Part shown: positions 4,519-22,152 of the stretch, one piece after another | How the letters are laid out: the number at the start of each line of letters is the position of its first letter | Numbering within the stretch: position 1 is the stretch's first letter | Assembly: GCA_021927905.1 (NCBI GenBank) | Contig: BLLK01000022.1 | Span: 1,798,001 to 1,862,000, forward strand | DNA length: 64,000 bases | Source: Chaetoceros tenuissimus | Taxonomy: Eukaryota > Bacillariophyta > Thalassiosirophyceae > Chaetocerotales > Chaetocerotaceae | Direction of reading: 5' to 3' | Notes under the pieces: model-generated | Database searches by the model: none | What the model was told of the DNA's origin: nothing | What the model saw: the letters and a program-made list of their open reading frames with translations, nothing else | Position numbers and translations under genes: made by a program

Positions 4519-5167
4519 AAAGCTTAGGAGCAGATGTGCACTATTAGTTTTGGAAACTTTATTGCACATATACCAGAGGACGAATGTAATATTGGGAAGA
4601 TATTACTATCACCACATGTGAAAATAATCTGTAGAGAGTCAATAGATAGATGTACTTAGTCATCATTCCGACTTATATCTATATATGAAATAAATCTCAA
4701 TAATAATCGATCGCGATTCAATAGTTTTCAAACCTTCCATTACATTGTGCTATTCCAATTCCATCTTTCGAATAACAATGTCCCATGACGAAACTATGAC
4801 AGCAGCAGTCGATAGAATAAGGATCTATCAGTTCTGGTACCATTTTTATATAAATCTTTAGATTAGTTTGGTTTTTATAACTTTTCAGATAATGCAGTAG
4901 TTATGGTTGAAATAGAGCAACGCTTCTTTTTCTGAATAAGAAGAGTTACTTTGCACTTCTCATTTTAAAATAGAACAATGAGAACTTTTGATTGCGTCGT
5001 GATTATTGACACTCAAATAAGAGCGTTTTAGATAAGTTACAATTGCCCCTTTTCTGAAGACAGTCCGTTGGGAAAACCTCACCGCTTCTTCTTTTCTTTT
5101 CTTATTCTTCATTACATTTTCATCATCTAAAACCAATCGTAATATCGTTCATTAAAATTCAATCAGA
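4519..5167. other. intergenic, no gene seen
   Basis: About 650 bp of AT-rich sequence between two plus-strand genes. I see no coding frame of credible length or composition and no structured RNA. Confidence 0.5.
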
Positions 5168-5737
5168 ATGAACTCACGTAATCACATTTTCCTCATTGCT
5201 TCCCTACTCAGTATAGTGACAACCGCAGAATGCAAGTGCAAAGATGATCTTGCTAGTGTAGAATTCCGTAGTTTCTACATGCCATACGAATATGCAAAAC
5301 TTGACAAGGAACTCCTAGGAGAAAAGTTCGATCCTCTCGACCTATGCCATAAACATTATGATAAATTCTTTTACAGTGGACGCACTACATGTACCAAGAG
5401 TGACTCGACAACAGATACAACCGTTCACGTAAATGAAATCTTTTGCCTGCCTATTTCATGTACATACGACGAAGAAATTTTGACAGAAGCACTTCCAATG
5501 TTTGTGAATCAACATTATTTTGATGTTTTAGAGAAAGATGAGGATAGTGAACATGCATATGAGATAGTCTACAATGATATTCATGCGAGTTGCAAAGGAG
5601 AGTACACATTCAAGGGATTGACAACAAGAACGAAAGAAGATGTGGAGAGCACCTTCAACTCGGGAGCGACAGGTATATATTCTTACAAAATTGCGGTTTC
5701 TATAGCAGCTCTAGCTGCATCTCTGGCACTTTTCTAA
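5168..5737 (+). CDS. small secreted Cys-containing protein, probably GPI-anchored
   Basis: Open frame of 189 residues. Residues 1-20 form a clear signal peptide (basic start, hydrophobic core 'IFLIASLLSIV', then 'TTAEC'). The mature part is acidic with scattered cysteines (about seven, including 'CKCK', 'CHK', 'CTKS', 'CLPISC'), suggesting disulfides. The last 20 residues are a hydrophobic helix ('YKIAVSIAALAASLALF') with no charged tail after it, preceded by small residues ('TFNSGATG'). That arrangement is the usual GPI-attachment signal, although a simple membrane anchor is possible. I do not recognise the ectodomain. Probably a cell-surface protein. Confidence 0.7.
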   Translation: MNSRNHIFLIASLLSIVTTAECKCKDDLASVEFRSFYMPYEYAKLDKELLGEKFDPLDLCHKHYDKFFYSGRTTCTKSDSTTDTTVHVNEIFCLPISCTYDEEILTEALPMFVNQHYFDVLEKDEDSEHAYEIVYNDIHASCKGEYTFKGLTTRTKEDVESTFNSGATGIYSYKIAVSIAALAASLALF

Positions 5738-5952
5738 AGAATATGCCGTATTAGAATGAAATATGAAAATACATAATTATCTACGTACCTAATTGTCAGA
5801 TGGAATAGTAATAAATATTATAGCGACAAATTGAAAATCTAATATCTTGAATGAGAAATACATGAATATTATACAGTATTATTCATTCTTGCACATATCG
5901 ATTGCTCTACTATACAAATATATAGATATGAATATATCCATGAACAAAAACA

Positions 5953-9329: not shown

Positions 9330-10919
9330 TTAATCAACGTTTACTGCATTCCTATTCACCCCTGACCTTTCAGTGTACTTCAAAATCTTTTTATAGCCTG
9401 CAATTGTCTCGTCATATATTTTGGTAAGCATAGCTTGCTTTTCTATTTTCGTGGCACAAGCTCCAATATCTTCTTTGTCCAAGCTATTCAGTCGCTTCTT
9501 CACCATCAATCTGAACTTCTTTTCTATTTCTTCCTTATCAGCTGCCTCTATGTTATCTTCACGTTTTTGCAGATACTTTGTTTTTTCGGATAGCTTGCAA
9601 ATTTCGTAAGCAATTTGCACTTGAGTCTTTGTAATGCGAAGTTGAACTCCTATATTTGTTGCATCGGCATCGTTCATTAGTAAATATTCACCATCTTTAA
9701 AGTATTTTTCACAAATAGAGCAATCCCCCTCTTCTTTATACTTTGATAGCAAATGATAGTCTACAGCAACACGCAATTGTACAAATCCAGGAGCTGGATC
9801 TTCCACGTTTACCTCCACTATATTCGACTGTTCCTTCAATATCGTATCAAAATCCCCTTTTGCATACTGATAACAAGCATCCATTAATCGTTTCCCATGC
9901 CCTTGTCGTTGATAAGGAGGTAATATGAGTGCCTGACATATTCTAACAATATTACCACCTACAGGCTTTTTAAATGGCGAAAAGAATAAAAACAAAGTCA
10001 TGTATCCTGCCAAAGAGTATCGAACCACGTTATCATCTGAATGTTTTTGAAATAGATACATGACTACCCACTTCCCTCCACCTTCATCACTTGTCAGATC
10101 AACCCCATCTGCATTTTCAATAAAGAACAAGGCTAGATTTTGGATAGACTGATGATACTCATTGATATGTGGTGTTTTCCCACTTGCGAGTGTCACTATG
10201 AAATCTTTGGATGCGACATTATACGATGCCACAGATTCACCAATTGGTTCGAGTAGATATCCATCTTTATCAAGTTGAATGCTCTCGGGTGCTTTCATGG
10301 GTGGTAATGCTTTGGAAAGCATTTTGATAATAGTCGAGTCGTCATTTCCAGTATCTTCGTGAGATGATTCATTTTCATCAGTAGCTTTACGTTTCTGACC
10401 ACTCAAAGTACTCGTTTCTGCAATAGGTTTCTTTTTCATTGAAATATTATTTGTATAAGCGCATGATGGTACGATTGAAACATTGATTCTGAGATATTGC
10501 GATGCATTGGATTTGTAAGGTTCGAGAAAAGATGAGTGAGGTACATTTTCATTTTCTTTCCCCTTGCGCTGCTGAACTATTTCGAAAGGGAGTAGTCATT
10601 ATGATATTAGATCCAAATATATGAACCACATTACATAGATTTCTCATTAGTTCAAGATGTGAAACTTACATGCCAATTGAAAAGCTTTCTCAGTTTCGTC
10701 TGGGAAAGGAGTGTATCCTGGAATTACTTCATTTTCAAAGCATTGATGTGTAAAGACAGGATGAATACAAGGTTGTAATGCAGCACTTGAAGAATCTGAG
10801 GTAGAATCAGACACTGGATCTTTTGCTTTATCTAAGTAAAGTGCAATGATAGCAGATGCAGATGAAAGTCCAGCTACTGGTTCAAGATCTTCATCTTTAT
10901 CCTCGTTTTTGTGATCCAT
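9330..10919 (-). CDS. HAT1: histone acetyltransferase type B catalytic subunit (HAT1)
   Basis: Two exons on the minus strand: 10919-10670 and 10576-9330, with a 93-nt intron 10577-10669 (donor GTAAGT, acceptor AAATAG). The phase-1 join gives a 498-residue protein. Exon 1 holds an acidic N-terminus and the HAT1 hallmark 'HPVFTHQCFENEVIPGY'. After the join come 'SQYLRINVSIVPS', an acidic insertion, and the GNAT core with acetyl-CoA motif A, 'RICQALILPPYQRQGHG', where QRQGHG is at about 307-312. 'VNVEDPAPGF' carries the acidic residues expected in the HAT1 active site. HAT1 acetylates newly made histone H4 on K5/K12 before chromatin assembly, with an Rbap46/48-type partner. It is longer than human HAT1 (about 420 residues) because of N-terminal and internal acidic inserts. 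The in-frame ATG at 10439 is internal, because homology extends upstream of it. Confidence 0.9.
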
Positions 10920-12163
10920 CTTATTTCGTCAAGGTTGAAAAGTTTCTTAACGTACTTTTTCTATAGATTAATTCTGTTTCCTTTCACTATCTATTGAAGA
11001 GGTTAGTGTAACACCTAAGTATATTGGAGAGAAAACATTTGAAAAAAACTCTTCAATGATAAGGTAAGCACAAGAAGTAAGTTATGAACATCATGCATCA
11101 TGCTGTACTCGATAATCGTAATGCATGAAGTACGTACACCAATTAAAACGTATCTACTAAATCTTCGCGGATAGCATGACGGGTCATTCCCTTCAGTCTT
11201 TTCTGAGCTTCCTCACTTGACACCTTATTCTGGGCTTCCTCCTATTGTGTCGGAGTTATTTTTCACTTTTCACTAGAAGTCAGTTTTGCCGTAAACTCTA
11301 GCTAGGAAGGAGGATTGATTAGGTTGTTTTGCTTCGTCTTCTTTTGATCAGTAAAAGTAAAGGGAAAGAACCATATGAGGAAGGGTTTCCTTACGTATAG
11401 TTGAAGCTCATGTAATACGACATAGCAAAATTGAGATGTGAATCTTATATGAAGTAAAACGATTTGTTTTTAGGCAATGTATTACAGTATATAGACTTCC
11501 CGTCATTCCGATCACTTCAAAAATGTATCCACATCCAAGAAACTCTCCTGGTATTTATATCCTATTCATCGTCAAATTGTTAGAATGGCTGGATATCATA
11601 TTTTTTTGCTTATTAAAAAAAAAAACTTTCATATTTTGAGTTGTAGAATTACTTGAAATCGCTTAGATGACATGTGAAATATATATATATATTGAATTAA
11701 GCAAATAGGCTCAAGCCATAAGCAAGAACATATTTATCGAAACACAGTATCATTTCATATCTTTTCATTTACCCGTGGTAGCTAGTCTATGTACACGACA
11801 TTTGCAAATGTGAACGTCTACTTCTTCAATACAATACAGGAAAAGAACACGTTGAACCTATCTTCCAGTTCCTTCCAATCCTTTCAAAAATGAAAGGGAG
11901 GAGAAAAGCTCCGGAACAAAAATTGAAAAATAGAAAAGCTCTTAAAACTTGAGATGCATCACATGCAGCTGATTGAGCGGTCCTGGATCTACATTTTATT
12001 TCGGCCTATCATTTCAATCCTTTCTCTTGTAAAATGATAATTTAGCTCTAAAACAATCCAAGCGTCTTCCTCTCTTCCTCTATCTCTTGTTGCCTCTCAA
12101 AGGATTAAAATAATTTGCTTGTATGTGTACTTGTCCAATCTTCACATCTTCACTACAATCGGG

Positions 12164-12382
12164 ATATTCAAACCTTTCAAATTTGTCGAAATATGATTGT
12201 TCTAGCTTCCCAGCTTCCCAGCTTCCCAGCTTCAATAGATTCGGGTTGATGGGAAGGCTGAAAATTGAAAGATGGAAGAGGAGGGCGGAAGAAATCCAAA
12301 CGCCATTCATTTTGGCACACAATTGTCAAGTTTCATCGATATGAAAATCTCATTCTTCTTATTGCTACTTGGTGTTAAAACC
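12164..12382 (+). pseudogene. truncated copy of the promoter and signal-peptide exon of the gene at 12843
   Basis: The block 'atattcaaacct...aaatttgtc...atgattgtt' at 12164-12203 recurs at 12633-12672. Both copies continue with a CTTCCC-rich stretch, 'gaaggctgaaa', 'cacacaattgtc'/'cacataattatt' and 'tcatc.atatgaa'. In the first copy the ATG at 12341 opens a typical hydrophobic signal sequence ('MKISFFLLLLGVKT') but stops after 19 codons, with no donor or mature exon. It corresponds to ATG 12843 in the intact gene. It is read as a broken tandem duplicate of the 5' end. Confidence 0.6.
12204..12233. repeat. 8-bp tandem repeat (AGCTTCCC)x3.75
   Basis: Three full units and six bases of a fourth, all perfect, inside the decayed 5' copy. 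The equivalent position near 12670 holds only 'agcctccc'. Confidence 0.9.
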
Positions 12383-12842
12383 TTCAAAGTTTCGACCCTC
12401 TAACCTTCCTCTTTCATCGGAGTAATTCTCTCGATTGCATGAAGGAAAGGCATTATTCCAAACCGCAGTTGGTGCGTCAACTAACTGAATGAGGAACGTA
12501 AACCTGGGAAGCATATTCCTCAGCACGCTTCCTCTGTGACTTTTTGCTGATTTAAAACGAGTGAAATCTTTTCTTTTCAATACGAGGGTTTCTACTCAGT
12601 CCAGTGTCGCCTATCGTGCGAAAAGAAGTCAAATATTCAAACCTAAAAAATTTGTCAAAAAATGATTGTTTTAGCCTCCCACGACTCCGAGTCTGGAAAC
12701 CCGGCCTTCAGTGGGCTTCCCTTCTTGATGAAGGAAGGCTGAAAGATGAGTGTGGCAAAAGGAAAAAGTCAAAAGTCAAGTCAACCTTTCACACATAATT
12801 ATTGCAGTGATATATCAGTTTTTGCAAAAACTTTTCATCAAT

Positions 12843-15800
12843 ATGAATATTCCATTCTCTCTTTTCTTTCTGGCATTCGCTATTCAGAGAGCTGCTGCCG
12901 AGTCTTCCATATTGGAACAACACGGTAAGAAGATTTGAAAAGTCGATTTTACAATTACATTTTTTCCTCTCTCCAAAATCTCATTCTTGTTTGGATACGA
13001 TGTGTACATAGAAGTAGATGTGTTCCAGGAGTCAAGATCCTTAGCTCATTGCGCATATGTTCACTCAGGTTCTGGTGGAAATTTCTGTGATGTCCAATTG
13101 AATCAAGGGCAGTGTGCAACTGCAGCTCAGAGTAATTGTGTCCATGGAGCCACTGGAAATACCGTCAATAGTAAATATATTTGGGATGACAATGATATAG
13201 ATGCCCTCAAACTTCTTGTTGATGAAGAAAATGATCAAGGTAATAAGACACCAAATCTGGATTTTTTGCAACTACCTCCTGGGTGCTATATACTCAAGGG
13301 GAAACAAGGAGGAACACTGTATTATTACTACAAAGCAAGCGGTGGATCTGCAACACAACTAACTACAGGAGACAAAAATATCTGTTTCGGAGGTAAGATC
13401 ATCAAAACACCTATAGCTACAGAAGATTCTTGAATCAGATTAATTTCTTACATTTTCTTTTCGTCTAGCAACACCAAGTCCAACAGCAGCAGTAAGTAAA
13501 GTATATATTTGTTGAGAAAAAGAAAGATCTTTGTTTCGTTTTTCTATAATCATTTTTTCTTTTCCTTTGAGGTGATGAGAACAGTCGACTTTGGCTTCAC
13601 AATAGTTGGCTTTTCCTCACAATGGTTGGTTTTTCTTCACAACGGTTGGCTTTCCTTCACAAACGTTGGCTATTTTCTCACAAACGTTGGCTATTTTCTC
13701 ACAAACGTTGGCTTTGGAAACAGTATTTCACATCGCATTGTTATTTTAGGAATGTTTGTAAGAAAAATAATAGCTTACAATATTTTAAATTGAAAATTTT
13801 GCAAGGATGACTGCTTTTTTCTCTCAGTCTTTTTTCGAATCGAATCCCTTTCGTTCGAATTTGGTCTTTGCCTTTGTTCTGAGCTTTGCTCAGGCAGTCC
13901 AAAATGGAGGAAAGACATGAAATCCAATTGACTGAGTTTGGCTTTCTAAAGAAGCCATCGCGTCCGACAACAATCTCTGTTGTAGTTGGAAATGTCGCAG
14001 AAAGATTTGAGATCAAAAAGGTTGAAGTTGATACTTTGTCTTTGGTAGATGAACTTCAAGATTCTACATCAAATCGAACCTTCTATAAGGTCCAAACAGA
14101 ACCTTTAGTGATTAACAATGTCTGGAATGCTTCACAATCTGCAGTACATAACTTGCTAAAGAAAGTTTGTAAACAACCTGCTGCGTACGAAAAGTTGAAC
14201 TTGGCGTACATTGACTTTGATATCTTGCATTGGGAAAAAGATTTATTGCCGCTTATTGAAAAAAGTGATGAACGATTTCAACTCAATGAACACAATACAA
14301 TTTGTTTAGTGCTACACAATGGGAAATACGTGGACATGACCTCTCTTACAGGAAGATTGAATATTTTGTTAGAGGCTGGAATAAATTTTCAATTTTTGTT
14401 GAATGTGACGGTAGCGGAGAACGATATTCGTGCACAGAAAGTCGAGTCGGAGAAAGAGAGAGGTAGATCAAGAGAAAGATCAAACAGTCGCTCTCGACGC
14501 AAAAGTAGAAAAAGCAGAGACTCTTCTAGTGATAGTGAGGATTACAGTGACGATTCAAGGTCTCCATCCCGTCGCAAGAGAGGTAGATCCCGAGAAAGAT
14601 CAAACAGTCGTTCTCGACACAAGGATAGAAGAAGTAGAGACTATTCTAGTGATAGTGAGGATTCCAGTGACGATTCAAGGTCTCCATCCCGTCGCAAGAG
14701 AGGCAGTTCTAAAAAAAGAAAAAAGAGTCGTTCTCGACACAAGGATAGAAGAAGTAGAGACTATTCTAGTGATAGTGACAGTTCCGGTGAGAGTTCCGTG
14801 GTGTCGCGAAAGAAGAAGAAAAAATCTTCCAAGAAAAGCAAGAAAGAGAAAAGAAGGAGCCCAAGTTCATCAAGCTCTGGCTCAGACACTGACTCCGATT
14901 CAAGTACTCACTCAAAGCACCGAAAGAAGAAAGAGAATGATTCAAAGAGGAGGAAAGTAACTAGTCCTCCATCAGAAGTGGACATTCCAAACAGCGGCGA
15001 AGCGTCTTTGAGTAAACTCACTGGTGACTTATCTAGTAGTAGGGAAGTAGAGTGTGAGGATGCTTTCAAGAAGCGAGTATTGGACTTGGACAAGCGCGAG
15101 GCTGATTTGAATCAAAAGGAAGTAGAGCGTGAGTCTGCTTTCAAACAGCGTGAGGCGGCTTTGAATCAAAAGGAAATGGAGCAAGACAACACTCTCAAGA
15201 GGAAGAGGAAAGAAGAAGTTGAAAGGAGCCTTCCGTTGTCAGAGGTTGATATTGCAAATAATGAAACGTCTTTGAGTAAAATCACTGAAAGTAGCGGGAC
15301 ATCCGGTTCTCCAACTGATGATCTTGGACAGTTGGCTTCAGAACAGCAGAATCAATTGACCAAAGAGAATGATAGTTTGAAGTCTCAGATCAAAACTTTA
15401 AAAGCCGACGTCTCGCGCTTGAATCAAGGAATGCAAGTGCAATCTAATCTTGCAAAGCAACAAGAAAATGTATTGAACGCTCAAGTTGATACTTTAAATG
15501 CCGACGTCTCGCGCTTGAAGGAGGAGAATCAAAAACTTTCAGGAGAACTTTCTAATAATAGGAATCAGAATAACAATTCTACTTCTGGTGAGTAATATAT
15601 GTTTCAGAACAAAGCCATGATTAGAAGATAACTAACATTTGTATACCTCTTTCAAAGTCGATCAACTCCAGTCAGAATTGGATGAATTGAAGAGAAAGTA
15701 TGGAACAGTGCAAAGTGAAAAGTTCGATTACTTAGAAAAATACATGAAAGCGACAGAGAAGATGAATGAGACAGTAGAGAGCAATGATAAATATGAGAGA

Positions 15801-18800
15801 TTACTCGCTACGAAAGAGAGGCAACTCCAAGAACTCTCCAATAGAAATAATAGGAATCAGAATGACAATGCTTCGGTTCCACGAATCATTCTTTCCCAAG
15901 CAGACAAGGATTTATTAGCTTTCGAATATCAAGCATTAGTAATGCTGGCAAATGCTTTGTATGGACCTACTGTTGACATCAAAACCATCTTTGAGCATTT
16001 CGACATAGATGAGACAAGGTTCACAGAATTGGACCAGAATCTACTGGATATGAACAGGGACGATGGTATCGATTTACTAGAGGAAAGGCCACATGAATTC
16101 ATGTATAGTGGGAATCATGGAATGATAAGAGCATCAGCCAAGGAAAAGGTTCTACCATATAAAATTGGCTTCTGTCTCATGATAATGTCATCAATCATGG
16201 CACAGAAGGAGAGGTATCCCAAGTCATGGATCAAAGACGCTAAACCAATTTATAAAAAGTTTCTCTACCTATTGAGAGGATTCTTGAATGTCAAGTTTCT
16301 GAAAGAGATAGAAGTGACAGTTGAAGATAGTGTGAGTGATGAAGAGAGTGTGAGTGATGAAGTAGAATTAAGAGATAGAGAAATTCAAGAAGGAGAGGAA
16401 CAGGAAAAGGAAAAGGAAAAGGTGAAAATAACGCAGCAATTGCATTCCGACGAGAAATGTATCAATCAATTCGCATATTTCATGCAAGAAAATATCAACA
16501 AAGATAAGAATAAACAGTACAGGTACACATTTGATACAAACCGAAACGGTGATAATTGCGGGCAATGGGATACTCTACGAAATGTTAAATGCTCAAAGGC
16601 AAAGGCTTTGGTATTCAACTTGGTTCAAGATACAATCAAATCTGTTCTTAGAGATGCTAGACGAAGCGACGAAGGAGAGAACAATGACAATAGACCTGAC
16701 GACGACGAAGAGAACAATAGCGATAGACGTGGCAATGATGGCAGACAGAATGATGATGATGATCGACGTGACGACGACGAAGAGAACAATAGCGATAGAC
16801 GTGGCAATGATGGCAGACAGAATGATGATGATGATCGACGTGACGACGTCAGAGAGAATAATAACGATAGACGTGGCAATGATGGCAGACAGAATGATGT
16901 TGCTGGACCTAGCGATGGTGGTAGACAGAATGACGATGAAGGCCAAAGTGAACAGAATCACGATAATGTTGAAATGGATTCAACAGAACTTCGTTGGACC
17001 CCTGAAAATGATGCAATGTTTGCAGTTGAGAAAAAGGATGGAAGCAAAGTAGGGAGACTAGGATTGATTGGAGAATCCAAATCCAAGGCAGAGTATCTCA
17101 GAAGTGAGAAATGGCTCAAAAAGAAAGCATATCTTGAAGAAAAAGCCAAGAAACTTCTAAAGATGGTTTTTGTAGTCAGTGACTTTGGATGTAGGATCGT
17201 AGTTAAAATGACTCCTGAAAAACGTGCATTATTCAAGGAGGAAATTGGCAATACAGTATTTGTCGTTCAGGATTTCTTCATGATTCATGATCAACGTTCC
17301 ATAGTAACCAAGAAATGGTATAGAATGTTGAATCAAGCAATCAAGGATGCAATAGTTGTCAAGGATGATTCCGAAAGCGCTCATCCTAATAGTCAATGTC
17401 TCTTTATTCCTAATGGATCAACAACTTTGGATGATCGTCCTTTAGGGAAATTATTATTCTACGAAGAGGAGGGAAAGGTTGCTTACGACCGAGCTATCCC
17501 ATTGGAACAAATGTCTGCTTGTTTCAATAATGAAAAGGCACTCAAAGAGTTCCAGGTGGTGCCCAAGTCCATGGTAATTAATCGTTATTTGCATCAGACT
17601 AACAACCGGCCACTTGAAGCTAGCCATCTGTGCCATAACAGATGGTGTATTCATCCGCTTCATTTACTCCTTGAAGACAAACTTTACAACCTTTTGCGAG
17701 GATTTGGATTATGCTGTGGATGGGTTTACTACAGAGTAGGTAACAGAGTCGTATGGGAACCATCAAATAGCTGCAATCATACTCCAAGGTGTGAATATGT
17801 GAAACCTGCGACACGTGTTCCAACAACATTCCAATTTAGACCAGGCATGATCTGTAAGACGATTGCAAAAGCAGCTTAGAGTTACATTCAATAATTCATT
17901 CAAGAATTAAATTAATTGCCATTATCTTTTTATTTATTTGTTTTGTCGTGTCTCAAGTGTCTCTATTAGACTGCAACATGCAGATGCGTGATGTCTTCGT
18001 ATTTTGGATTAGAAATGGCTATTTGCTTACCGACTTTGCATAGATCGCCAATGTAGCTCATATTCTCTTTTGTTTCTGTAGCCAACAAAAGCTCCAACTC
18101 CAGCTCCTGTCAATCCTGGTCCAACTCCAACACCTCCAACTCCAACACCACCTACTCCAACACCTCCAACTCCAGTAACTCCAGCGCCAACTGCAGCAGT
18201 AAGTATTTTGGATTAGAAATGGTCATATTCTTACCGACTTTGTATAGATCGCCAATATAGCTCATATTCTCTTTTGTTTCCGTAGCCAACAAAAGCTCCA
18301 ACTCAGGCTCCTGTGAATCCTACGACTTCATCCCCTACTCCAATCCAAGCTTTCCTCCTTTATGCCCAATGCGAATTTGATGCATCCGGACAGCAATACT
18401 GTATCCAAGCTATGGGACTCACAGAAGGATCTGCACTACAACCTCAATTATGCAACCAACACACGCCTATCAACCAATACTTCTACGAAGATAGTGCTGG
18501 ACGTATTCGTTCTTATGCAAATCCGTCCATGTGCTTGGTATCGAATGTGAGTGATAAATCAGTGTATCTTGGAGCATGTGATAATAGTGGAGGTGGAGAA
18601 GCACTTTCAATCATTTCGGGAAGTGAAGCTGTCGGTATAGTGTCTCCAATTGCAATCACGGCAGAAGCTGCAAATGTAGCAGCATTCAATATCAATGTAG
18701 ATGGAGGATATGTCATGGGATTGAGCAACGACAATTTGTTTGGAAACTTTGCTTTGTTCAAGACACCAGAGGAACTTGACGAATGTTGTGTGGCAATTGA

Positions 18801-19902
18801 AGAAATAGCAGCTGATACTGCAGCAATTCCTGCTCCGTCCCCATTGTCGCCGACTACCGCTCCAACAGCACAATGTACTGATCTACCTGATTTCACCTTC
18901 AAACTAGATGACGTCAATAATGAAGTTCATTGCTTATGGTTGAATCAAAACGCACAGAAAGACACAGACGTAGCTCGCATCGAAAGATACTGCTCCAAGG
19001 ATGATGTCAGGGGTGCATGCAAAGCTTCATGCAGCACTTGCTCTCTACAAGATAACCCTGATTATACCTTTCCTCTTCTTTACGTCAGTAATACGTCAGG
19101 AGATTGTGACTGGATCGCAAAGAAGATTGATCGCCGCAACAGATATTGCTTCTCTTCTAGCGACTGTCTCAGTGCATCTGAAGTCGGAGTCAACTGTCCT
19201 GATGCATGTGGGTTCACTAGTGGAGAGACAGCAGATACTTGCAATAATGATAGTATCAATGTCAATACACCTACACCTCCGACAAAGACACCGACGAAAG
19301 CACCGACAAAAGCACCAACTCGTGCTCCTACTACACCTAATGACAACAGTTGCAGTGACATTGATGGTTTCACCTTCCCTCTCGACAATGTTGCAGGTGG
19401 TTACGGTTCTTGCGAATGGCTTACCAAAACCAATGCTAGTTCTCGAAAGGCTAGATACTGTGATCGTGGCCATGTCAAAGGCGCTTGTAAACAAACATGC
19501 AATGCTTGTGGAGTGACAGATGATTCTACTTTCACTTTCGAACTTGATAATATCGAGGGTAAGATGGTAGGCTGTGAATGGATAGCTGGGAACGGAGACA
19601 GGATTAGTGCTCGTCGTTCCAAGTATTGTTTTGCATCAGACTGTGAGTCAGCATCTGAGAGCATTGGAAATGCGTGTTTGGAATCATGTGGTTTCACGGT
19701 TGGAGAGCATGCTGGTAGGACATGTCCACCTACACCAGCACCAGTAGCATCAGTTCCAAATCCTTCACCAGCTGTCGCTCCATCACCACCGTCCAAGGGA
19801 TCACCAACTTCAAAGGGTTACACGTCATCCAAGGGCAGCGTTGAGTCTATAACTGGTTCAACGCCTTCAAAGGGTACTTATAGAGTTCGCCGTAGAATTT
19901 AA
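12843..19902 (+). CDS. secreted modular protein with lectin-like domain and Cys-rich modules (five exons)
   Basis: Exons 12843-12924, 13012-13392, 13469-13491, 18082-18198 and 18286-19902 join in frame into 739 residues. The first 20 residues are a signal peptide ('FSLFFLAFAIQRAAA'). Exon 2 encodes a 127-residue domain with five or six cysteines that I do not recognise. Exons 3-4 and the start of exon 5 encode Pro/Thr linkers ('PTKAPTPAPVNPGPTPTPP'). About 223-370 resembles a ricin-type beta-trefoil ('YCIQAMGL', 'CLVSNVSDKSVYLGACD'). Four Cys-rich modules follow (about 395-455, 455-520, 557-610, 612-680). They form an A-B-A-B pattern: A ends 'GACK..C..C' and B ends 'C.(D/E).CGF'. A Ser/Lys/Gly tail closes the protein. 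Likely an extracellular or wall-associated glycan-binding protein. All introns are about 75-90 nt except intron 3 (13492-18081), which is 4590 nt and holds the insertion described separately. Confidence 0.75.
13596..13715. repeat. 20-21 bp minisatellite, about six units
   Basis: Direct units of the form 'ttcacaaacgttggctattt' lie inside the insertion, upstream of its gene. The last three units are almost identical ('cacaaacgttggctattttct'); the first three are diverged by a few bases. Each unit contains the near-palindrome 'aacgtt'. Confidence 0.85.
13904..17879 (+). CDS. SR-rich coiled-coil protein with C-terminal His-Me finger (I-PpoI-like) endonuclease domain
   Basis: Two exons, 13904-15587 and 15658-17879, separated by a 70-nt intron (GTGAGT...AAAG), join in frame into 1301 residues. 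The N-terminal 170 residues are globular and unrecognised. Next comes an SR-rich region with three 40-residue repeats (about 185-300), then Lys/Ser runs and long coiled coils (about 370-640). A helical middle domain follows, then a Glu-rich run and an Asp/Asn/Arg repeat region. The C-terminus matches the zinc-binding loop family of homing endonucleases: 'ASHLCHNRWCIHPLHL' has the likely catalytic His at 1218, Cys/His ligands around it, 'EDKLYN' in place of the Asn-bearing helix, and a later C..C.H.P.C set ('CNHTPRCEY'). The family cuts DNA with one Mg ion. The fusion with SR and coiled-coil parts is unusual. The ATG at 13904 follows an in-frame TTG, so I chose the ATG. It lies wholly inside an intron of the secreted-protein gene. 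Confidence 0.75.
14450..14800. repeat. 120-bp coding repeat (SR region), about three units
   Basis: Three tandem units of about 120 bp encode 40-residue blocks 'RGRSRERSNSRSR' + 'SRDYSSDSED' + 'DDSRSPSRRK'. They are nearly identical at the DNA level, which points to recent expansion by slippage or unequal exchange. Confidence 0.8.
16690..16915. repeat. 72-bp coding repeat (Asp/Asn/Arg region), about three units
   Basis: Units encode a 24-residue block containing 'EENNSDRRGNDGRQNDDDD'. Two are almost perfect and the third is diverged. The region is in frame with the endonuclease-like protein. The opposite strand therefore shows long but meaningless open frames. Confidence 0.8.
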
Positions 19903-20177
19903 GTGCTTTATCAAGTCTTGTACCTGAGATCGCTACCACATAGATCGCTACATATATATGTTATGAAAAATAAAGAAGTAGAAGTCTTTTATATATTCGT
20001 TTTTACAATCAATTGCTCATTGCAGCCATCATTAGTAGCCCACATGATTTACAACTGACTTGTCAAATAGGGAATGTCGTAGCTTATTATAAATCTTTTA
20101 TAACTTATTTTGCAGTTTTCAAACTAAAAAATATTCTTTAGCTCTTTTTTTAATAATTCTTTTTAATTCAGATGTAA

Positions 20178-22152
20178 TTACAAACGCAGCCAAACTCCAG
20201 AAGTACACTTGAATCCACTTCCAAATGCTACCTGAAGAACTCTATCACCTTTTCTCAGTGGGTTGTTCTTTTGTTCCTCCATGATGTATTCCAATTCATA
20301 CCAGATAGAAGATGATGAAGTGTTACCGTAGTTGAGTAATGCCATACGCGATGGTTCAGTGTGATACTTTTCCAGCTTCATATTCTTTTCAATTCCTAAA
20401 ATTTAGAAATAGATTGATGTTAGACCCAGCGAGGAAAAGTTTTGCAAGCATAAACAAATAGCAAGTCACATGCAAGAGAAACAGAGACATAAGCAAGAAA
20501 AAAGACAGTCATGAATTCATATATGTTTTCTCCAACTTTGGATCTCTCCTCGGTAATGACTACAAAGGATCAATGTTTACAAAACTCACCATCAATCACA
20601 GCTCTACCACCAGCATGGATACAAAAGTGGTCGACCCCTCTCTTGAAGTCAGGCACATATACTCCAAATTTCTTTCCCAAAACTTTCTTTCCAAAAATCT
20701 TCTTTACAATACTAAACGCAACCTTCGCCTGTTCACTCCACGGCAATACCAGAGGTCCCAACATGGTCAAGTTCTTTTCCATAGTTTTCCCAGCAACCTT
20801 GACGATTTCCTTACTGAGTCTGACACCACGATAACCTTCACTATCTTCGCATTCGAAAACACACTGGTATCCGTCCTCGCTGTTATTCTGTACGCGAATA
20901 GTATGCAAAAGCTTAAACCAAGCTCTTGATCCATCCATCCATTTATTACTAATCACCATAGCCGCTCCACCGCATCTAAACAATGTATTTTGCAACAAGA
21001 AAGCACGTTCATTACCAGTATAAAGGTTAGGAGTAATGATTTCAGTCGAAACAACCAAAGCCCTTCCTCCAAATTTTCTTCTCTGTAGCATATTCTTGGC
21101 CAAGTCCAATGCAAGTAAACTAGCTCCACAACCCATTCCACTCAAGTTATAACTAAAAATATCCGGTCTCATTTGAAACTTGGTAATGACCGCAGCACAC
21201 AAACTAGGAGTAGGACTAAACAAGGAACAATTGATGACAAGAACATCAATATCCTTTGGTTCCAACTTGGCTTTCTTCAAAGCATTCTCCACAATATCAA
21301 ATAGGATAATTTCCGCCTCCTTTCTACTTCCATCAATGGATCGATCTGGACGTTTTCCCTCCAGGGTTTGTACAATTCCCGGAGGCCATGCAGTGGATTG
21401 TCCCGTTCCAGAACGTGCAAGGAGACGTGCCATGAAATCAAGTGATTCTTGTGTAAACGGTGCTTTATCCGGCTCATCATCAAAGCATTTGTAGTTTTTC
21501 ATCATTTCAATAATTTGTTCATGGGATACTTTCCATTCTTGCGGTGCTTTGAAAGTAGCAAAGCTGAGTAAATAGGTTGGGTTGTCCATTTTGAGAATGA
21601 TGGCCATGATGACCAATACGAGAAAGCATGTTTCAACAGCAGGACTGAAGAGTGCTTCTTTACGCAGAGATAGGATGCTGTCAACTTGTCTCATGACGAG
21701 TCCATGAATGGCTGATACGATTGTAATGAGGGTTTGTGGTGAGAAAGGTGAAAGTGGCTGACCATTGGTGTCTACGAGTTCGGTGACTACTTGTTTGCAG
21801 ATGAGTGCTATGAGGACACCGATTCCAATGACAGTCATGTGTGGAATGTACGTAGTGAATACATGAGTCCAGTTGATCATTCTATGTTAGACGGGAATAG
21901 CATTAGCATAGAATTGAGAAAAAGAAAATAACGAAGAAGAAGGAAAGCAAAGACTTTGTTGCAATCATACATGTGTACAGAGATACATTTACATAGACTC
22001 AGCGATGCATGTATCTGCGTCTCTTTCATAGCAACACTCACTCACCCGATGGTCTTTGATTTCCGAACTCTGTAAGATCTGTATTCAGGGGAATCGGTAG
22101 CGGTAGACGATACCGATCCCATATCACTGGCTACACTCGAGCTTTTCTTCAT
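20178..22152 (-). CDS. KCS: 3-ketoacyl-CoA synthase (FAE1/KCS-type fatty acid elongase condensing enzyme)
   Basis: Three exons on the minus strand: 22152-22046, 21881-20590 and 20395-20178. The introns are 164 nt (GTGAGT...CATAG) and 194 nt (GTGAGT...TTTAG). Joined, they give 538 residues. Exon 1 supplies a polar N-terminus ('[14 protein letters not shown]'). Two hydrophobic membrane segments follow (about 50-65 and 115-132). The thiolase-fold core has the catalytic triad: Cys at 287 in '[17 protein letters not shown]', His at 458 in '[10 protein letters not shown]', Asn at 491 in '[10 protein letters not shown]'. The closing 'GSGFKC' motif is typical of plant FAE1/KCS enzymes. It condenses malonyl-CoA with a long-chain acyl-CoA at the ER in very-long-chain fatty acid synthesis. 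The ATG at 21880 opens a long frame but is internal, as exon 1 joins in frame just before it. Divergent from homoserine dehydrogenase. Confidence 0.92.

Follow-up and report, generated by a model that had tools for sequence, protein, structure and literature searches.

A His-Cys-box nuclease-like gene inside a spliceosomal intron of the diatom Chaetoceros tenuissimus, a candidate insertion into a pre-existing intron

How a complete endonuclease-like gene came to lie within a spliceosomal intron of a cellular gene is the question raised by a 64,000-nucleotide stretch of the nuclear genome of the diatom Chaetoceros tenuissimus (contig BLLK01000022.1, C16:1798001-1862000), hereafter called the window. 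A 4,500-bp insert (13499-17998) interrupts an intron of a host gene predicted to encode a 739-amino-acid (aa) secreted-type protein, and the insert carries a gene for a 1,301-aa protein with a His-Cys box of the I-PpoI superfamily. Insertion of this gene as DNA into an existing 87-nt intron is favoured here over its deletion from a sister intron, since a single insertion accounts for the data. Genome searches were carried out over the 41.03-Mb, 68-contig nuclear assembly (C13, C16, C17, C38 and C46 are contigs), and all the match counts obtained from them (PF05551, array motif, peptidase-like genes and relatives) are lower bounds. The genome of C. tenuissimus NIES-3715 has been described as 41.0 Mb with 38.9% GC (PMC8613185), and GC content is 35-45% across positions 10000-22000 of the window.

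The insert lies in intron 1 of the host gene (13492-18081, 4590 nt, GTAAGTAA...TTCTGTAG), which is followed by an 87-nt sister intron, intron 2 (18199-18285). Both introns start with the same seven nucleotides, GTAAGTA, and their last 80 nt (18002-18081 in intron 1) are identical at 73 of 80 positions without gaps. This likeness is not due to chance, because the best other ungapped match of the 80-mer on the plus strand of the window, excluding 200 nt around both sites, reaches 40/80. When the 4,500 bp and one GTA are removed from intron 1, 87 nt are left, which is the length of the sister intron. The insert ends share exactly three base pairs, GTA (13496-13498 and 17999-18001), and identity stops there on both sides. 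Across the insertion point, the flanks match the sister intron in an exact 30-bp run, 13 bp on the left and 17 bp on the right. The initial annotation had described a precise insert flanked by GTA/GTA in one of two tandem homologous exon-intron units. The insert, the gap-free intron match and the GTA repeat are all confirmed by this comparison and by the open host frame, and the tandem units are confirmed in part, as likeness begins in the last 13-20 nt of the exon, spans the intron and extends some 38 nt into the following exon (33/38), but whole exons are not alike. A segment of 121 nt comprising intron 2 and its borders was found in two copies only in the genome search, 92% alike, and in the only other match of the host gene (C13, 42%) the frame runs on open with no intron apparent at that place.

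The host gene, on the plus strand, consists of five predicted exons that join into the single 739-aa open frame: exon 1 (12843-12924), containing the start, exon 2 (13012-13392), exon 3 (13469-13491), only 23 nt long and encoding part of a Pro/Thr linker, exon 4 (18082-18198) and exon 5 (18286-19902), with a ricin-B-lectin-like match under the Pfam cut-off. The GT-AG introns measure 87, 76, 4590 and 87 nt in order. The inserted gene has the host orientation, as had been annotated, and the splice-site consensus of intron 1 is intact.

The inserted gene, also on the plus strand, is predicted from the sequence to have two coding exons (13904-15587 and 15658-17879) separated by a 70-nt intron (15588-15657); a distant relative on C17 has a similar sequence at the corresponding position. 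A second predicted 70-nt intron (13758-13827) lies in the 5' untranslated region (UTR), within a conserved leader (13743-13872) that comprises this region and its intron; the intron is conserved at two other loci that carry the leader. The gene would have been brought in with its upstream region and presumably a promoter of its own. Upstream of the leader there is a tandem array (13597-13715) of 5.8 copies of a 20-bp unit (TCACAAACGTTGGCTTTTCC). The protein includes an N-terminal region, RS-rich repeats (14457-14848, encoded by 120-bp tandem repeats), coiled-coil-like stretches, acidic repeats and a C-terminal zf-His_Me_endon domain (PF05551, 17601-17801), a His-Cys box with catalytic-type His and Asn residues. 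This domain scored 35.5-36.8 bits in the Pfam scan, over the cut-off of 27 bits. The best solved relatives are I-PpoI chains, with weak matches (E 0.036, and 0.0064 with a three-member profile). In I-PpoI, the catalytic residues H98 and N119, and also S97, H110 and E114, have been named, and the target site is 15 bp (PMC9587614). All three relatives keep the box residues S, H, H and E. Counting from the aligned ASH, two of the three have a clear Asn where the I-PpoI spacing places it. Membership of the His-Cys-box superfamily is assigned because of the PF05551 score (36.8 bits), the kept S, H, H and E and the Asn spacing, and the I-PpoI-like His-Me finger domain of the initial annotation is supported accordingly. 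PHROGs gave only weak endonuclease/HNH matches (lowest E values: window domain, 0.035; C17 relative, 0.0046), which agree with the domain and were not used. In NCBIfam, the window protein had no match and the C17 relative had two, far under the cut-off. AlphaFold2 single-sequence models had mean pLDDT values of 32.5 (17205-17876) and 43.4 and are unusable as evidence of fold.

Several kinds of element were discarded. A retrocopy was rejected because the inserted gene keeps its two predicted 70-nt introns, which points to insertion at the DNA level. A mobile group I intron was rejected because Rfam gave no match at E<=1 in 13300-18400, neither a group I ribozyme core nor any other group I/II intron signature. 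A DNA transposon with terminal inverted repeats was rejected since no such repeats joining the insert ends were found and no transposase was detected in the Pfam scan of the window; this includes KolobokP, whose transposase is of the DDD/E type and whose terminal direct repeats are long (PMC9587614), whereas the insert ends share only 3 bp. A recent viral origin was dropped as no viral relative was confirmed in four IMG/VR scans (profile A1, 17301-17876, 13907-14450 and 15852-16697), although absence from IMG/VR proves little.

The inserted gene belongs to a small family. PF05551 gave three matches over the cut-off in the genome search. A partial copy on C16 (C16:3070526-3071377, minus strand; the C16:3.07-Mb copy) retains the C-terminal domain (46% identity, 307-aa open frame, PF05551 30.6 bits) directly behind the same leader as in the window gene, and so lacks the middle part. 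At C46:173101-173379 only the leader is found, 81% identical to that of the window. Each of the two lies between the peptidase-like exon and the Cys-rich final exon of a gene, in the sense of that gene; the two genes are paralogous. A donor GTATGTTT and phase-matching acceptors, with phases determined by eye, delimit candidate introns of 1690 nt (C16:3.07 Mb) and 846 nt (C46). The paired 20-bp array motif occurs only in the window and at these two peptidase-like loci (7 matches; 0 in the reversed control). The C17 relative is distant (26% identity), with PF05551 at 28.2 bits in the genome search and at 25.4 bits, under the cut-off, in the Pfam scan. A fragment like the middle region of the nuclease is found at C38:406815-407078 (E 1.6e-6), in a 219-aa open frame, and a second middle-region match on C48 has an E value of 0.07. 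The N-terminal region had no other match in the genome search. The initial annotation had listed a total lack of further copies among the findings that would count against a mobile element; a partial copy and a leader-only relic are present inside two peptidase-like genes, and no second full-length copy was found.

Selective constraint was estimated by the Nei-Gojobori method between the window gene and the C16:3.07-Mb partial copy. In the C-terminal domain, 128 of 281 aligned residues are identical and half of the comparable fourfold sites (24 of 48) agree, with a dN of 0.485 and a dS of 1.36, near saturation. The leader identity with the window is 116/130 columns for C46 and 95/105 for C16:3.07 Mb. 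The non-coding leader (13743-13872) is far more conserved than the protein that follows it (89% of columns versus 46% protein identity). Since the leader is so much more alike than the protein, it has been either constrained or homogenised.

The peptidase-like genes belong to a family with at least 118 matches (97 of 150 candidates scored). They contain a HELGHNLNMAH stretch and only sub-threshold Pfam matches (Peptidase_M10, E 0.028), so they are called peptidase-like here; the assignment to M11 is our own, from this stretch and from M11 gametolysin being among the domains listed for the genome (PMC8613185). A third intron with the same exon end and donor lies in another peptidase-like gene and reads PTTAA followed across the splice site by GTAAGTA-CA-TTTTGGATT. 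The pattern GTAAGTA-N(0-10)-TTTTGGATT, which detects uninterrupted sites only, had four matches in the genome (the sister intron, this peptidase-like linker intron, C27 and C32) and none in the control. When the linkers of four further peptidase-like loci were examined, a similar intron was found in one of the four. The third intron weakly suggests that the uninterrupted order is old. A stricter intron-start pattern had no match in the window with two mismatches, as the spacing did not fit, and a looser one, with three genome matches versus two in the reversed control, was not used.

The favoured reading is that a complete large His-Cys-box nuclease gene, with its upstream region, was inserted as DNA into the existing 87-nt intron, in the sense direction and 7 nt inside the donor end, which leaves donor, 3' tail and host frame intact, and normal splicing should remove the gene from the host message. 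The family of the gene is small and old, and at least one further member resides within a gene, between peptidase-like exons; the gene would descend from a homing-endonuclease gene, persist sheltered in introns and move rarely by break repair, probably with no homing at this site today. The sequence itself shows the gene, its junctions, the family, the conserved domain and the consensus at the splice sites, whereas splicing, a promoter of the gene's own, nuclease activity and mobility are inferred from it. Taken as a whole, this account is put forward tentatively, with a little less than even confidence. Mobility of the gene by itself is considered plausible. Several observations weigh against the proposal. 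The full-length insert matches only itself in the genome, the element ends are not common to the three copies (window, C16:3.07 Mb and C46), and none of the 20 inverted-repeat pairs of at least 12 nt links the insert ends. The 3-bp end repeat is weak evidence, as it would be expected at about one in 64 random junctions. Intron status at both peptidase-like loci is indicated solely by phase-compatible splice sites, and the pyrimidine tract of the C16:3.07-Mb acceptor is poor. The C17 relative is intact and, judging by its neighbouring frames, looks intergenic. Finally, the third intron is one of four pattern matches, and those on C27 and C32 have unrelated exon ends and may be due to chance.

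One rival reading is an ordinary nested gene: a member of a domesticated cellular nuclease family would have reached the intron by chance during break repair, with no selfish mobility. The very low copy number, the purifying selection on the C-terminal domain and the intact, apparently intergenic C17 relative with its intron at the same position are all consistent with this, and so is a long intact protein with RS-rich and coiled-coil regions, unlike the compact homing nucleases. Chance placement explains less well why other genes also hold, between their exons and in their own sense, a second member and a leader-only relic, or why a fragment of the middle region lies on C38. This explanation is regarded as possible, although doubtful.

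Another alternative is an active spliceosomal homing intron, in which the nuclease would cut the empty intron allele and homologous repair would copy the insert, as proposed for the shintrons of mirusviruses. The catalytic-type residues of the nuclease domain, the intact splice-site consensus, the sense orientation and the 3-bp end repeat would fit. However, the sister intron, 0.2 kb beyond the insert, keeps the exact 30-bp site uninterrupted, and no second full-length insert was found at any site in the genome search. Homing here is less likely today because a site-specific nuclease should cut this exact copy of the site; either the nuclease is blind to it, or it is inactive, or the sister intron is somehow protected. 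Active homing is thus judged improbable, and of the mobile or homing-type element suggested by the initial annotation, mobility is retained as plausible and site-specific homing is disfavoured by the intact sister site, the lack of common ends and the C17 relative, which does not look intronic.

The order of events could also be reversed. If the gene were ancestral in the intron, a tandem duplication of intron and gene could have been followed by loss of the gene from the second copy through deletion at the GTA microhomology, and the same 3-bp repeat would be expected. A 3-bp microhomology is available in 60 of the 4270 possible products of 60-120 nt, and such an outcome would be possible under selection for short introns. 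Nevertheless, two large events would be needed, the microhomology is present in only one of the 67 products of exactly 87 nt, and the other two host introns, of 76 and 87 nt, indicate that the short form is the normal state. Deletion is therefore considered quite improbable. An assembly or haplotype artefact is barely credible, as the junctions are clean, both genes are intact and the coding GC of the inserted gene (40.2%) is close to that of C. tenuissimus coding DNA (40.3%; PMC8613185), even though the assembly is probably from a heterozygous diploid (1.56%; PMC8613185).

Insertion of a sheltered gene into a pre-existing intron, the reading preferred here, has its closest known parallel in the mirusvirus shintrons reported in November 2025, with 334 intron-harboured nucleases of the HNH, GIY-YIG, VSR-like and PD-(D/E)XK types, an association of spliceosomal introns with homing-type nucleases that their authors state had not been observed before (PMC12768974). 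Like the shintrons as there described, the insert places a homing-type nuclease gene in an intron with spliceosomal splice sites: the PF05551 gene lies inside the GT-AG intron 13492-18081, with splicing predicted, and Rfam found no group I or II signature. Shintrons occur in viral genes, mostly for virion formation (PMC12768974), whereas the host gene here is cellular, and in place of the shintron nuclease types there is a His-Cys box in a 1,301-aa RS-rich and coiled-coil protein. Shintrons show a statistical preference for target genes; in the family of the window gene, two residences in different gene families are too few, and no preference was seen. Unlike what is described for shintrons, there is evidence here that the intron predates the insert. 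The arrangement is a candidate for a cellular, His-Cys-box variant of shintrons in which a pre-existing intron was invaded.

Among other systems, nuclear group I introns (I-PpoI; L2066) have nucleases of the same superfamily, and their endonuclease genes can hold small spliceosomal introns, but they are self-splicing and reside in rRNA genes (PMC9548176), whereas here the host is a protein-coding gene and Rfam gave no match in 13300-18400. PF05551 itself appears, in the literature consulted, in open reading frames of Naegleria rDNA plasmids. No cellular or His-Cys-box case in a spliceosomal intron was found in open-access titles and abstracts, a partial coverage that is not proof of absence. 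Introners are also mobile DNA tied to spliceosomal introns; they create new introns in many copies, whereas here one full copy of a gene would have entered an existing intron. Novelty is consequently lower than first claimed, since the mirusvirus shintrons precede this case (PMC12768974).

In a stronger version, a free His-Cys-box gene entered an existing intron and took splicing as a shelter, making this a cellular, nuclear spliceosomal homing element, and the RS-rich region of the protein could tie it to the splicing machinery; this version is rated rather unlikely. If the gene is mobile, it would be a variant of the known shintron kind; if not, it would be a nested gene of the ordinary sort, though still of interest. 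A cellular case with an insert-free sister intron would make the order of origin testable, that is, whether the nuclease gene came first, the intron came first or both arrived together. It would also bear on whether selfish nucleases can use nuclear spliceosomal introns as safe sites in the way that they use self-splicing introns.

Further observations concern the loci of the relatives. Over 631 bp upstream of the leader, covering exon end and intron, the two peptidase-like genes at C16:3.07 Mb (L011 5130-5760) and C46 (173382-174012) show 100% identity; their last exons differ, and the likeness stops within the nuclease leader. The same peptidase-like intron also holds, in antisense, part of a PSDxPS-type coding repeat (L011, about 5500-5740, minus strand). 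This fragment is flanked on its two sides by nearly identical sequences of some 38 nt and looks like another intron insertion. This coding repeat is widespread, accounting for most of the listed ones among 485 matches. At C46 (L012 4337-4684, minus strand), the leader is directly continuous with the last exon, within an open frame that has an ATG of its own, and a small new gene may now be driven by this leader. Around the C38 fragment (C38:404000-410500) there are few long frames, with 219 aa as the longest in 6.5 kb. Downstream of the C17 nuclease gene (L010, about 5030-5170), a tandem array of 21-bp units (ggttttgtatacttgttgcct) is present, which resembles that at 13597-13715 in style but not in sequence.

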